In this document: positions 2,881 through 10,584 of the stretch, one piece after another
Numbering within the stretch: position 1 is the first letter of the stretch
How the letters are laid out: every line of letters starts with the position of its first letter
NCBI GenBank assembly: GCA_031275815.1
Contig: JAISOF010000002.1
Coordinates: 1 to 62,379 of the forward strand
Reading direction: 5' to 3'
From: Candidatus Nomurabacteria bacterium
GTDB taxonomy: Bacteria; Patescibacteriota; Saccharimonadia; Saccharimonadales; Saccharimonadaceae
DNA: 62,379 bases
The notes under the pieces: model-generated
What the model was told of the DNA's origin: nothing
What the model saw: only the letters and a program-made list of their open reading frames with translations
Databases searched by the model: none
Made by a program: the position numbers and the translations under genes

Positions 2881-3579
2881 TTATTTCTGACCCTTATAAG
2901 CAAAATACAAAATCAAAGCAAACAAAAATCCACCGATAGTATTGCCGATGGTCACCCAGAGGAGGTTGTTCAGATACGCCAGTTCAAAGTGTCCGCTGGT
3001 GAAAATGGCGGCGGCAAAAATAAACATGTTGGCAATACTGTGCTCGGCTTTAATCATTACAAAGGTCATGATGGGGAGGATGATGCCGAAAATCCTTGTG
3101 CTCCCTTTTTCGTGAGTACCGAGCCAAGAGGCGATACAGACCAAAAAGTTAGCAATAGCGCCGGAAAACAACATCGCAACAGGGGTCAGATTGGCTTTGG
3201 TAGTGGCGGAAGACAGCAAATTATCTTGATAACTCTCCAACAACCCCGCCCCCCACAAAAATGTTGTAATAATTACAACACCCAATAAATTGAAAATATA
3301 AACGACCGCCAGGCGGGAAAATATCTTGGGTTGGCGCGGACGAAGCACCACCAAACAGTTGCTGGTGAAAAGTTCAGCACCGAGCAAGATAATCATCACG
3401 AGCCCAAACGAAAACAGTAAAGAACTCAACACAAGATTGCCAAAAAGCGCTGTGGCAATCACTGAAATCAACCCCGCGCAGCTCAGCACCACCCCCGCCA
3501 AAATCGAGCGCGACCATACCTGTCCGCGATTTTGCTTGAACTTGCCGGCAATGACCTTGTGGTATTCTTTCATCTGCAT
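2881..3579 (-). CDS. Formate/nitrite transporter (FNT) family channel
   Basis: 232 residues with six hydrophobic segments in the FNT arrangement. Family marks are GAELFTSN after helix 2, the N-F-L-V-C-I-A-S-W-L element, and KAEHSIANMF, which holds the central-pore histidine of FocA/NirC-type channels, then the final TIGNTIGG motif. FNT proteins are pentameric channels passing formate, nitrite, lactate or hydrosulfide as acid/anion pairs. It is shorter than FocA (about 285 residues), mostly in the N-terminal tail and loops. The substrate cannot be read from sequence; for a fermenting CPR cell formate or lactate export is plausible (inference). The start is supported by GAAAGGAGG upstream. Confidence 0.88.
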   Translation of the reverse strand: MQMKEYHKVIAGKFKQNRGQVWSRSILAGVVLSCAGLISVIATALFGNLVLSSLLFSFGLVMIILLGAELFTSNCLVVLRPRQPKIFSRLAVVYIFNLLGVVIITTFLWGAGLLESYQDNLLSSATTKANLTPVAMLFSGAIANFLVCIASWLGTHEKGSTRIFGIILPIMTFVMIKAEHSIANMFIFAAAIFTSGHFELAYLNNLLWVTIGNTIGGFLFALILYFAYKGQK

Positions 3580-4043: not shown

Positions 4044-4745
4044 ATGAGCGACATTTGGGTCAATATTGCAGTTGTGGCGTTAGCCGGTTTTATCCATGCC
4101 ACTTTGCAATTGGGCTTGGGTTGCGTGATCTTATTGTATCACGGCTCCGTGGGGCGGGCGCACATTCGGCGCAAAACCAATAGCTTGGTTAGCAGTTTTA
4201 TTTCCGGCGTGGGGCTGATGTCGTTTTTGTTGCTGTCGGCGGTAGCTTTCATTTTATTGAATATTTTTGGGCTTTTTGTGCCGGATTACTTCTTGGCAGT
4301 GGGTGTGGGTATGTTGGCGGCGACCGCTGTTGCCACGATTTTGTTTTATTATCGGCGGGGCGTGGGGACGGAACTGTGGTTGCCAAAACCGGTGGCGAAG
4401 TTTATCGACCAACGCGCCAAAGCCACCAACAACACCAGTGAGGCGTATCTTTTGGGCTCGTTCGCCTGTTTTGGGGAGCTGCCGTTCATCTTGGCGTTAC
4501 TTCTGATTTCCGGCGCTTGCATTGTGGAACTTCCGGTTGAATGGCAGTTGCTGGCCGTGGCGATTTATGCCATCATTTCAATCATTCCGCTGGTGATTTT
4601 CCGGTTTTCGGTGCACACCGGCAAAACGGTCGCCGACGTCCAGAAGTGGCGCATGCATTTCAAACGCTTTTTGAAGATTATTTCCACCGTCAGCTATCTG
4701 GCGCTCACGCTGTTTGTGATAGTTTATAAAATAATTGAGGTGTGA
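4044..4745 (+). CDS. Polytopic membrane protein of unknown function
   Basis: 233 residues with about six hydrophobic helices in two groups of three, separated by a charged loop near residues 115-135 (KPVAKFIDQRAKATNN). The layout resembles small transporter folds such as the LysE/CcdA/GAP type, but I see no diagnostic motif or cysteine pair and cannot assign a family. I use ATG 4044 (MSDIW) rather than an upstream in-frame ATG at 4005, because the -10 box TACAAT ends only 6 nt before 4044 and no ribosome site precedes 4005. It is the first gene of a tight operon: the stop overlaps the ribosome site of the next gene, which overlaps the flavoprotein gene, suggesting a membrane-linked redox role (inference). 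Confidence 0.6.
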   Translation: MSDIWVNIAVVALAGFIHATLQLGLGCVILLYHGSVGRAHIRRKTNSLVSSFISGVGLMSFLLLSAVAFILLNIFGLFVPDYFLAVGVGMLAATAVATILFYYRRGVGTELWLPKPVAKFIDQRAKATNNTSEAYLLGSFACFGELPFILALLLISGACIVELPVEWQLLAVAIYAIISIIPLVIFRFSVHTGKTVADVQKWRMHFKRFLKIISTVSYLALTLFVIVYKIIEV

Positions 4746-4747
4746 AG

Positions 4748-4987
4748 ATGACGATTTTTTCCGAAGAAACTTTGAAACAAGAACTGATGAATGACGCGTT
4801 GGCAGTCCGAATACCTGAGGGGCAAGCGGAAGAGTTGGCGAGTTTGGCGACAGCGGAGGTCAAAAAGTGGCTAGAGGGGCGCGGTAAAGTCACGCGTGGC
4901 GACATTCAGCGGGTGATTTATCAAACTTTGATGCGGCACAACGAGAACTTGGCGTTCGCGTACGCCATTGAAGGCAGGGTGATATGA
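4748..4987 (+). CDS. Small ATP-cone-like protein
   Basis: 79 residues from ATG 4748, which follows GAGGTG at a suitable distance; a GTG at 4742 would add two residues. The C-terminal half (VTRGDIQRVIYQTLMRHNENLAFAYAIEGR) resembles the second half of the ATP-cone nucleotide-sensing domain of ribonucleotide reductases and NrdR (pattern 'v.t.eI.elV...L...d..ayl.fa.vyr'). The first half, where ATP-cones carry a conserved lysine and arginine, is only loosely similar. It may be a stand-alone regulatory subunit for the flavoprotein, whose ATG overlaps its stop (ATGA, 4984-4987). The assignment is tentative. Confidence 0.5.
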   Translation: MTIFSEETLKQELMNDALAVRIPEGQAEELASLATAEVKKWLEGRGKVTRGDIQRVIYQTLMRHNENLAFAYAIEGRVI

Positions 4988-6345
4988 GCAAGTTTGAATA
5001 CGATTTGGCAGTGTTGGGGTCGGGACCGGCGGGTGCCACGGCGGCGTCAGTGGCGGCGAAAGCCGGACGCAAAGTGGCGATAATGGAAGTTGGGGCGCAA
5101 GGTGGCGATTTTTTGAACGGCTATGACGTGCCGAGCCAAGCCGCTTTCACGATTGCCAAGAGCTTTTATGAAGCGAAAAAAGGTGCCAAATGGGGGCTGT
5201 CGTCCGGCAGTCTGCGGTATAATTTCCCCACTTTGATTAATTTCACAAGGAGCGCCGTGCGCAAGGCCTCGCCGTTTTTCGGCGCCAAGTTTTTGGAGAG
5301 CGCGGGCGTGGAGGTGATAAAGGGCAGGGCGCATTTTCTCAGCCCGCATGAAGTCAGCGTCGGCAGTCGAGTCGTCAAGGCCAAGAACTTTGTGATTGCC
5401 ACCGGCGCGGAATTGAAAAATGGCGAAATCAAAAATCTGGAAAACGTGCGGGTGCTCACGCCGAAGTCGGCGTTTGAGATTATTCGACCGCCCAAATCGT
5501 TGTTTGTGATTGGCGCGGGCGCGACCGGTGTGGAGTTGGCGCAATATTTTGCGACGCTTGGCACACAGGTGTTGCTCTCGGACATTGCCGCGCGACCTTT
5601 GCCCAAAGAGGATGAAGAAGTGGGGCAGTTTGTGGATGAATTGTTCAACAAGCGTTTTGGCATCAAGGTCTTGACACGGACGCGCGTGGTGGCGGTGGAA
5701 AAGGACGCAATTTCCAAAAAGGTGATTTTGATTCGTGGCGGACAGGAGAAAACGGTGCGGGTGGATGAAGTGTTGCTGGCGACCTCAAAAGCGCCCGCGA
5801 CGGATATTGGGTTGGAGAACGCGGGTGTGAAATATGACAATCACGGGATTTTGGTGGATCAGGCGTTGCGCACCACTGCGAAGAATATTTTTGCGGCGGG
5901 CGACGTGCTCGGTGGCAACAGCTCGGCGACACGTGCGGTGTTGGAGGGCAAAACGGCGGCGCAAAATCTGGTTTATCGTTCCAAAGTGGCGGTCGACCTT
6001 GCCGGCATGCCCACCATCACCAACATTCTGCCGAAAATCGCGTCAGTGGGGCTGAAAGAAGATGATTGTTTGAAGGCGGACAAGAAGATCAAGAAAGCTT
6101 TGGTGGCGTTTTCTGACGTTGTGCAAAGTGTGACGGCGGACGATGTGAACGGGTTTGTGAAAATCATTGCCGACCGTTCCGGCAAATTACTCGGCGGCAC
6201 CATCATGGCGCCAGACGCCGACTTGATGGTTGCTGAACTTTCGCTTGCTATCAAAAATGGCATGAGCGCCGAAGAATTAGCCGCCGCCCCGCACGCTGTT
6301 GAATCGTGGAGCGAGGCTGTGCGGGTGGCTGGTTTGAGGTTGTAG
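4984..6345 (+). CDS. FAD-dependent pyridine-nucleotide oxidoreductase without the redox disulfide
   Basis: 453 residues with the fold of dihydrolipoamide dehydrogenase/mercuric reductase. It has an N-terminal FAD Rossmann motif GSGPAGATAA (residues 12-21), an ATG motif (FVIATGAEL), a second dinucleotide motif GAGATGVELAQ, the FAD-binding AAGDV segment (NIFAAGDVLGG) and a C-terminal dimerisation domain with PHAVESWSEAV, where family members carry the catalytic His-Glu. The active-site disulfide segment (normally GGTCLNxGCxPSK) reads GGDFLNGYDVPSQ, so both cysteines are replaced (F43 and D48). It therefore cannot do classic dithiol chemistry. Soluble transhydrogenase and some NAD(P)H oxidases of this superfamily also lack the disulfide, so hydride transfer between nucleotides or to another acceptor is possible. 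Co-transcribed with the two preceding genes. Confidence 0.85.
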   Translation: MSKFEYDLAVLGSGPAGATAASVAAKAGRKVAIMEVGAQGGDFLNGYDVPSQAAFTIAKSFYEAKKGAKWGLSSGSLRYNFPTLINFTRSAVRKASPFFGAKFLESAGVEVIKGRAHFLSPHEVSVGSRVVKAKNFVIATGAELKNGEIKNLENVRVLTPKSAFEIIRPPKSLFVIGAGATGVELAQYFATLGTQVLLSDIAARPLPKEDEEVGQFVDELFNKRFGIKVLTRTRVVAVEKDAISKKVILIRGGQEKTVRVDEVLLATSKAPATDIGLENAGVKYDNHGILVDQALRTTAKNIFAAGDVLGGNSSATRAVLEGKTAAQNLVYRSKVAVDLAGMPTITNILPKIASVGLKEDDCLKADKKIKKALVAFSDVVQSVTADDVNGFVKIIADRSGKLLGGTIMAPDADLMVAELSLAIKNGMSAEELAAAPHAVESWSEAVRVAGLRL

Positions 6346-9552: not shown

Positions 9553-10584
9553 TCATGCGCCGAGCGTGAAAAAGCTTTGGATGTGATAGTCGTCGCCCTC
9601 CACGCTGGCAACGGCAAGGAGGGGCGCGAAGTTCGGGATTTTGTGGAGTTTGGCGAAGATTTCGACGCCGAGTTGCATTTTGTGGAGTTTTTGGTCGGTG
9701 ATGGCGGCGAGGCCGTCGCCGTGTTCAATGGTTCGGCGATATTTGACCTCAGTGAAATAGTATTTTTCATCATGTTTTGAGATAATGTCAATTTCCACCA
9801 GCGGGGTTTTAAAATTGCGCGCCAGGACTTCGTGTCCTTGACGCTCCAACATCTCCACCACCACATCTTCCGCGCGGTTTCCGATTTTTGTTGTGTTTTT
9901 TACAACATTCTTAGCGGTGGCGGCAGAGTGGAAAGAACGGCGGGCGAATGGGGTGTGAGAGCGGCGAGCAGACGCTATATCTGGTGTCTGGACGCTAGAT
10001 ATAGCGTCTACGCCGCGATATTTTTGCAGTGGCTGAATGCTCAAGCGGTGCTCTGGGCAAACCCCGTGCCGTTCAATCGCCGCGAAATGCCCCGCAGTGC
10101 CATATCCCACGTGCTTTTCAAAACCATATTCCGGATGCGCCGCCGCCAATTTGGTCATATATTCATCGCGTGCCACTTTCGCCACAATCGCCGCCGCCGA
10201 CACGGCGTGGACCTTTTGGTCGGCTTTGACAAGTGTTGACGTATAGCGTTCCAAAGCAGTTCCCTCCAAAAAGTTAATAGTGCCATCAATCATGATTTCG
10301 TGAAACGTCACTTTGCTTTTTTGCACCGCCCGCACCGCCCGCCGCGTCGCCAACCGGAGCGCCTCAGCCATGCCGATTTCGTCGATTTTCCCAGCTGCCA
10401 CCCAACCCAGCCCCACGCCCGCGCCCGAAGCTATCACCAATTTCGACAACTCCGCGCGGCGCTTTTTTGACAATAACTTGCTGTCCGCGAGCCCCGCGAT
10501 GTCCTCCGCCAAAACCACCGCGCCGACCACAAGAGGCCCCGCAATGGAGCCTCTGCCTACTTCGTCAATGCCCAAAATTGCCAT
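9553..10584 (-). CDS. rnhB: RNase HII fused to a YraN/UPF0102 nuclease-like domain
   Basis: 343 residues. Residues 1-191 are RNase HII, which removes ribonucleotides and RNA from RNA-DNA hybrids; the acidic catalytic set is visible as D7-E8 (GIDEVGRG), D100 (MIDGT) and D122 (KADQKVHAVSA). Residues ~228-343 are a YraN/UPF0102 domain of the endonuclease-like fold (IGNRAEDVVVEMLERQG, LARNFKTPLVEIDII, YYFTEVKYRR; the E..D...EVK residues are present). In many bacteria rnhB and yraN are adjacent separate genes; here they form one reading frame. The linker (192-227) contains a palindromic DNA element. The ATG overlaps the rplS stop by one base, so translation is probably coupled. Confidence 0.9.
   Translation of the reverse strand: MAILGIDEVGRGSIAGPLVVGAVVLAEDIAGLADSKLLSKKRRAELSKLVIASGAGVGLGWVAAGKIDEIGMAEALRLATRRAVRAVQKSKVTFHEIMIDGTINFLEGTALERYTSTLVKADQKVHAVSAAAIVAKVARDEYMTKLAAAHPEYGFEKHVGYGTAGHFAAIERHGVCPEHRLSIQPLQKYRGVDAISSVQTPDIASARRSHTPFARRSFHSAATAKNVVKNTTKIGNRAEDVVVEMLERQGHEVLARNFKTPLVEIDIISKHDEKYYFTEVKYRRTIEHGDGLAAITDQKLHKMQLGVEIFAKLHKIPNFAPLLAVASVEGDDYHIQSFFTLGA
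9970..10009. repeat. Palindromic element inside the RnhB-YraN linker
   Basis: AGACGCTATATCT (9970-9982) and its perfect complement (9997-10009), extended outward by GCGGCG (9961-9966) and CGCCGC (10011-10016). It encodes linker residues 192-205 (ending QTPDIAS). A 17-bp part (9971-9987) is identical to 47808-47824, next to tRNA-Asn, where the companion arm also appears in swapped order. Resembles in-frame palindromic elements such as the Rickettsia RPEs (analogy only). Confidence 0.65.

Follow-up and report, generated by a model that had tools for sequence, protein, structure and literature searches.

The LysE superfamily, whose members are mostly exporters, includes both DsbD, its transmembrane electron carrier, and the GAP family (PMC4608589). 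DsbD and CcdA (TC 5.A.1; DsbD_TM) resemble the membrane protein of the operon presented here in their six transmembrane helices, and the GAP/SfLAP peptidoglycolipid-addressing proteins (TC 2.A.116; PF11139) resemble it in size and topology. DsbD and CcdA receive their electrons from thioredoxin, whereas the present operon encodes a flavoprotein. The latter is homologous over its whole length to the group I flavin disulfide reductases Lpd, MerA and soluble transhydrogenase, with which it shares the FAD and NAD motifs and the dimerisation domain. A third, small product displays the helical core fold of the ATP-cones of NrdR and ribonucleotide reductases (PF03477), but stands alone in a membrane operon. 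Literature searches uncovered no description of this operon, of its function or of the four-gene module from which it descends, and the main text of a transposon study of a Saccharibacterium (PMC10633639) did not mention such proteins.

The window (the whole stretch of DNA analysed, 62,379 nucleotides from a Candidatus Nomurabacteria bacterium) contained three open reading frames on one strand, located by ORF reading where they had been predicted (Table 1). A gap of two nucleotides separated the membrane and small protein genes, and the small protein and flavoprotein genes overlapped by four nucleotides (ATGA), which makes translational coupling of the three genes plausible. Elsewhere in the window, the minus strand encoded a formate/nitrite transporter at 2881-3579 (Form_Nir_trans, 163.8 bits) that diverged from both the FocA and the NirC model, and a single ORF at 9553-10584 that resembled, by eye, a fusion of ribonuclease HII with a YraN-like nuclease domain.

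Table 1. Features of the three-gene operon (window coordinates)
Feature	Position	Strand	Remarks
Membrane protein	4044..4745	+	ATG 4044 to TGA 4745; 233 aa, six TM
Q22-L23	4107..4112	+	Site of the invariant TM1 Pro-Cys (NPC) of Cys-type relatives; P 22/22 to Q 42/46; C 22/22 to L 45/46
E145-L-P-F148	4476..4487	+	Site of TM4 ELPC; C 22/22 to F 43/46; Glu kept (E 46/46 in Cys-less proteins)
Small protein	4748..4987	+	ATG 4748 to TGA 4987; 79 aa
Flavoprotein	4984..6345	+	ATG 4984 to stop 6345; 453 aa; ATG overlaps the stop of the small gene
FAD-binding GSGPAG, residues 12-17	5017..5034	+	G12, G14 and G17 invariant in the alignment
F43 to D48, former CxxxxC redox motif	5110..5127	+	F43 at 5110-5112, D48 at 5125-5127; C/C in all Cys-type relatives
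NAD-binding GAGATG, residues 177-182	5512..5529	+	G177 and G179 conserved; acidic D200 after the second strand
C-terminal interface H437-AVESWS-E444	6292..6315	+	V439 at the catalytic His position

All three genes were found in the same order and on one strand in 79 of the 80 named Saccharibacteria loci, the sole exception being a locus cut by a contig end. This ruled out a chance gene order and upheld the original prediction of a conserved module in which a flavoprotein without the disulfide is joined by a polytopic protein and a partner resembling an ATP-cone. The named loci stemmed mostly from Saccharibacteria MAGs and included TM7i, oral taxa 350 and 352 and Ca. Microsaccharimonas. One genome displayed an unrelated ORF of ~340 aa between the ATP-cone and flavoprotein genes (L084:4846-5868). 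Within the family of the window, the flavoprotein was detected in 48 of the 61 genomes (36-82% identity), and clear matches to the membrane protein occurred in 46 of these 48 and in none of the 13 others; both proteins were thus present in 46 genomes, the flavoprotein alone in two, the membrane protein alone in none and neither in 13 (Fisher p 1.6e-11). Saccharibacteria are ultra-small and their genomes tiny, and genes conserved this widely in them are presumably useful.

Selection between the window and its congener was strongly purifying on all three genes, dN/dS being 0.076 for the membrane protein, 0.13 for the small protein and 0.094 for the flavoprotein. These values of ~0.1, together with the intact ORFs, led to the rejection of pseudogene decay. 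The 13 of 61 family genomes from which both genes are gone would fit an operon decaying in the ordinary way, a remnant on its way out, but with such dN/dS values, no stops and an operon kept in 79 of 80 loci across many genera this explanation is hardly credible.

The flavoprotein is a member of the flavin disulfide reductase family that is devoid of redox cysteines. It matched Pyr_redox_2 (PF07992; 169 bits, 2e-49) and Pyr_redox_dim (PF02852; 67.7 bits, 1.2e-18), both above cut-off, and its closest solved relatives were dihydrolipoamide dehydrogenases (1ebd, 196 bits). Both the absence of the redox-active CxxxxC and the retention of the nucleotide-binding motifs had been noted originally and were confirmed here: F43 and D48 occupied the redox-cysteine positions of Lpd, MerA and GR, and the two dinucleotide GxGxxG motifs were intact, as were most residues of the FAD site. 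The C-terminal His-Glu region, said to be kept as well, was so only in part. H437 and E444 were present, but V439 replaced the catalytic His of the HAHPT motif, which left the His-Glu pair of the dimer interface incomplete; this His was already Phe in Cys-containing relatives. In contrast to Lpd, MerA and soluble transhydrogenase, the window protein thus lacks both redox cysteines and the catalytic His, and carries Asp in place of the charge-transfer Cys.

This Cys-to-Asp48 exchange was the sharpest switch in the flavoprotein alignment. Position 48, that of the second, flavin-side cysteine, was Asp in 39 of the 41 Cys-less flavoproteins of the tree set; among the named loci, a gut clade had Asn instead. 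Position 43 was varied (S in 25, A in eight, F in two and N in two of the 41, among other residues). Position 200 was D or E in 40 of the 41, an acidic residue that we take as a sign of NADH preference. Lys52, which contacts flavin N5 in disulfide reductases, was missing from the window protein and from roughly half of the Cys-less flavoproteins, and D307 of the FAD motif was variable in seven of the 41, so that some copies may be catalytically dead.

The small protein of the window scored 18.8 bits against the Pfam ATP-cone model (PF03477), below the cut-off of 25.8, which was exceeded by its relatives L031 (38.3 bits) and L011 (26.3 bits). Structural matches 1 to 9 of its AF2 model (pLDDT 84) were all ATP-cones of NrdR and ribonucleotide reductases (Z 9.4 to 7.5, the highest value being to NrdR), with 7p37 at the top (Z 9.4, rmsd 2.0 over 74 residues); a PDB sequence search with an ATP-cone profile gave nothing useful. 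The predicted likeness to an ATP-cone was therefore borne out. The protein is not half of one, however, but a genuine stand-alone ATP-cone minus its first (N-terminal) beta-hairpin. In known ATP-cones this hairpin bears nucleotide contacts. Most relatives began with a hairpin of the KRxG type, which was lacking in the window copy, in that of its congener and in a small number of further relatives (~5 of 21, counted by eye; a regex count over 140 loci was too noisy and was left out of the results). The strand whose Lys-Arg belongs to the nucleotide site is missing from the ATP-cone of the window's genus, so that it appears doubtful that the window copy senses nucleotides and, with it, that the module does.

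This missing hairpin also bears on the activity first suggested for the locus, a nucleotide-sensing transhydrogenase or diaphorase. Such an activity would suit the intact dinucleotide sites, the relatedness to SthA and Rv3303c and the NCBIfam matches to PRK05249 and PRK07845. Transhydrogenase and quinone reductase activities are known from SthA and Rv3303c, which are relatives depleted in Cys. The window protein displayed no specific signature of either activity, which leaves NAD(P)H transhydrogenation without specific support, and with an ATP-cone that lacks the nucleotide-binding hairpin throughout the genus this function is judged very unlikely.

Taken alone, the membrane protein of the window matched no Pfam family above cut-off, SfLAP (PF11139) included. 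Its affiliation emanated from Cys-type intermediates, whose profile aligned with that of the Cys-less proteins over 217 columns (hhalign, 99.1%, E 4.5e-19). Among 16 Cys-type members, 12 matched SfLAP/GAP and four DsbD_TM (best E 1.3e-9); the Cys-type relative L031 scored 40.1 against an SfLAP cut-off of 35, and Cys-type members matched DsbD weakly in NCBIfam. These relatives carry Pro-Cys in TM1 and one Cys in TM4, and distant homologues in other Patescibacteria displayed NPC and ELPCTG, respectively; in contrast to DsbD and CcdA, the window protein has neither Cys (L23, F148). By these profile relationships, it is a DsbD/CcdA/GAP-type LysE-superfamily protein without redox cysteines. The Cys pattern suggests that the Cys-type protein moves electrons. 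Against this, GAP, which is a family of lipid exporters within the superfamily, was matched by more Cys-type members than DsbD_TM was. Unlike GAP proteins, Cys-type members bear DsbD-like PC motifs, and no tie to mycobacterial lipids was seen. In the AF2 model of the window protein (pLDDT 92.6), helices TM1 and TM4 were broken at the former Cys sites. Foldseek and VIA-align retrieved generic helical transporters (Z up to 8.2) with no CcdA among the matches listed, so that the assignment relies on profile homology; a PDB sequence search with the Cys-type membrane profile gave nothing useful.

Cys-less membrane proteins shared a conserved polar set composed of Q22, E145 (Table 1) and Y175 (44 of 46). 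Such a set, in a superfamily of mostly exporters (PMC4608589), could indicate that the protein is itself an exporter, the flavoprotein and the ATP-cone being its cytosolic regulators or a substrate-processing enzyme. This is regarded as unlikely, since the replacements at the old active site were mostly hydrophobic (N to F, C to L, C to F, T to I and Y to L) and would tend to close a polar path.

In sister families, the flavoprotein gene closed a series of four, in the order extracytoplasmic protein, DsbD-like protein, ATP-cone and flavoprotein. This module was found in eight loci, in one of which (L065) the start of the membrane gene was missing and the outside protein lay on another contig. 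The upstream extracytoplasmic protein displayed GPVHWH and HEHxDxRIH motifs and four invariant Cys (a PDB sequence search with it gave nothing useful), the DsbD-like protein kept both Cys within NPC and ELPCTG, the adjoining ATP-cone was full-length and the flavoprotein carried the Cys-containing, dihydrolipoyl-dehydrogenase-like motif GGECPN.GCVPTK. Both Cys-type flavoproteins tested exceeded the NCBIfam cut-off for dihydrolipoyl dehydrogenase (lipoamide_DH). Cys-type membrane homologues extended to another Patescibacteria class, the Cys-containing flavoprotein of the module being found in sister families only. Elsewhere in the phylum, family f112 (L033-L036) combined an HWH extracytoplasmic gene, a DsbD-like gene and a full ATP-cone without flavoprotein. 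Downstream of these lay a gene for pterin-4a-carbinolamine dehydratase, and upstream of them one that looks, on reading, like a P-type ATPase.

The operon of the window descends from this four-part module encoded side by side. Judging from its parts, the ancestral module was likely a transmembrane thiol relay from NADH to the outside, which would couple a redox path of the envelope to the nucleotide state. Because the membrane protein lost its two Cys and the ancestral module had a fourth, extracytoplasmic Cys/His protein, the present module is likely the derived state of such a relay and not a nucleotide-sensing module that arose de novo.

None of the 61 genomes in the family of the window encoded the extracytoplasmic protein, and the membrane proteins of this family lacked both Cys. 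Five family members still displayed a Cys-containing flavoprotein and branched below the clade of 41 Cys-less flavoproteins (support 99/97). The tree accordingly formed a ladder from Cys in both proteins, through a Cys-containing flavoprotein with a Cys-less membrane protein, to loss in both. The Cys-less state of the flavoprotein is not due to chance, as it is common to a clade of 41 sequences with this support. Four Cys losses are needed in the flavoprotein tree, all of them where the membrane Cys were lost or the membrane gene was missing, the membrane genes of L051 and L075 having been read individually for this count; with only four independent pairs, the association fell short of significance (median p 0.25).

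Decay of the relay in parallel, with intact ORFs, was encountered in sister families. In G082, one flavoprotein Cys and the membrane Cys were lost and the outside protein was devoid of its His motif; G077 displayed NPF in place of NPC, and in G076 one membrane Cys remained. The outside and membrane genes of G083 were degenerate. The flavoprotein of G076 (L171:2313-3341) had shrunk to 343 aa, in which only one NAD domain could be recognised, and the ATP-cone beside it kept its hairpin in a retained operon. Loss of disulfide formation does not explain the loss of Cys, VKOR being present on both sides of the transition. The window genome itself displayed one thioredoxin-reductase-like protein with CATC as well as a further ATP-cone, this one full, encoded by a 175-aa frame that corresponds to NrdR in size; neither a thioredoxin (PF00085) nor a match to VKOR was detected in it. 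The operon offers a natural experiment, in which two partners of a likely thiol relay lost their catalytic cysteines in a defined order and stayed together, so that a non-thiol role of such a complex becomes testable.

With all relay cysteines gone and the genes intact under strong selection, the three proteins must now do something other than thiol relay. The retained FAD and NAD motifs and the near-invariant Asp48 favour an NADH flavoenzyme that has been repurposed and sits on a membrane anchor. In the ancestor, electrons would have passed from NADH to the flavin, the flavoprotein disulfide, the membrane cysteines and finally a thiol protein outside. In the window's family, the outside protein and both membrane Cys were lost, followed by both flavoprotein Cys in a nested clade, with the three inner genes remaining intact, linked and under purifying selection. 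Today, the flavoprotein would work with FAD and NADH and be held at the membrane protein, whose role would have become that of an anchor or scaffold. Its flavin, tuned by Asp48 where the charge-transfer Cys formerly sat, might pass electrons directly, without thiols, to a quinone, O2, a metal or a soluble carrier. The ATP-cone would serve as an adaptor, possibly one that responds to adenine nucleotides where the hairpin was kept; in the window's genus, its role is probably no more than structural. This account of ancestor and present complex, taken as a whole, seems to us just as probable as its negation. Reaction, acceptor, interaction and regulation of the complex are inferred, and electron transfer to the membrane partner, as first envisaged, is possible, but no redox group can be recognised in this partner any longer. 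More tentatively, and with a probability that we place a little below even, the cysteine-free, membrane-anchored NADH flavoenzyme complex with its ATP-cone adaptor, derived from a thiol relay stripped of every catalytic thiol, would represent a redox device, or a redox-sensing one, of a new kind, kept by most of a large Saccharibacteria family.

It is also conceivable, if somewhat unlikely, that all three proteins are without redox catalysis and form a structural or signalling complex in which the flavoprotein is an NAD(H)/FAD-dependent switch. The loss of Cys in both partners, the variable position 43, the many copies without Lys52 and degenerate versions with intact ORFs, such as the 343-aa flavoprotein of G076, are all in line with this; mere scaffolding, however, would not obviously need the FAD and NAD motifs or a nearly invariant D48.

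Heme-copper oxidase was present in 24 of the 61 genomes of the window's family. In the sister families, it occurred in three out of four genomes whose relay had decayed (G076, G077 and G082), in none of the eight with an intact relay (G065, G071, G084, G085, G086, G094, G097 and G098) and in 16 of the 31 others, the last two counts differing with p 0.012, uncorrected for phylogeny. A trade-off between an intact relay and aerobic respiration is put forward as a hypothesis only. In one further genome (G074, L173:4020-7030), a DsbD-like gene adjoined genes for a His-rich protein and a cupredoxin-like protein, identified by eye, an arrangement that suggests a possible copper link of the wider group.
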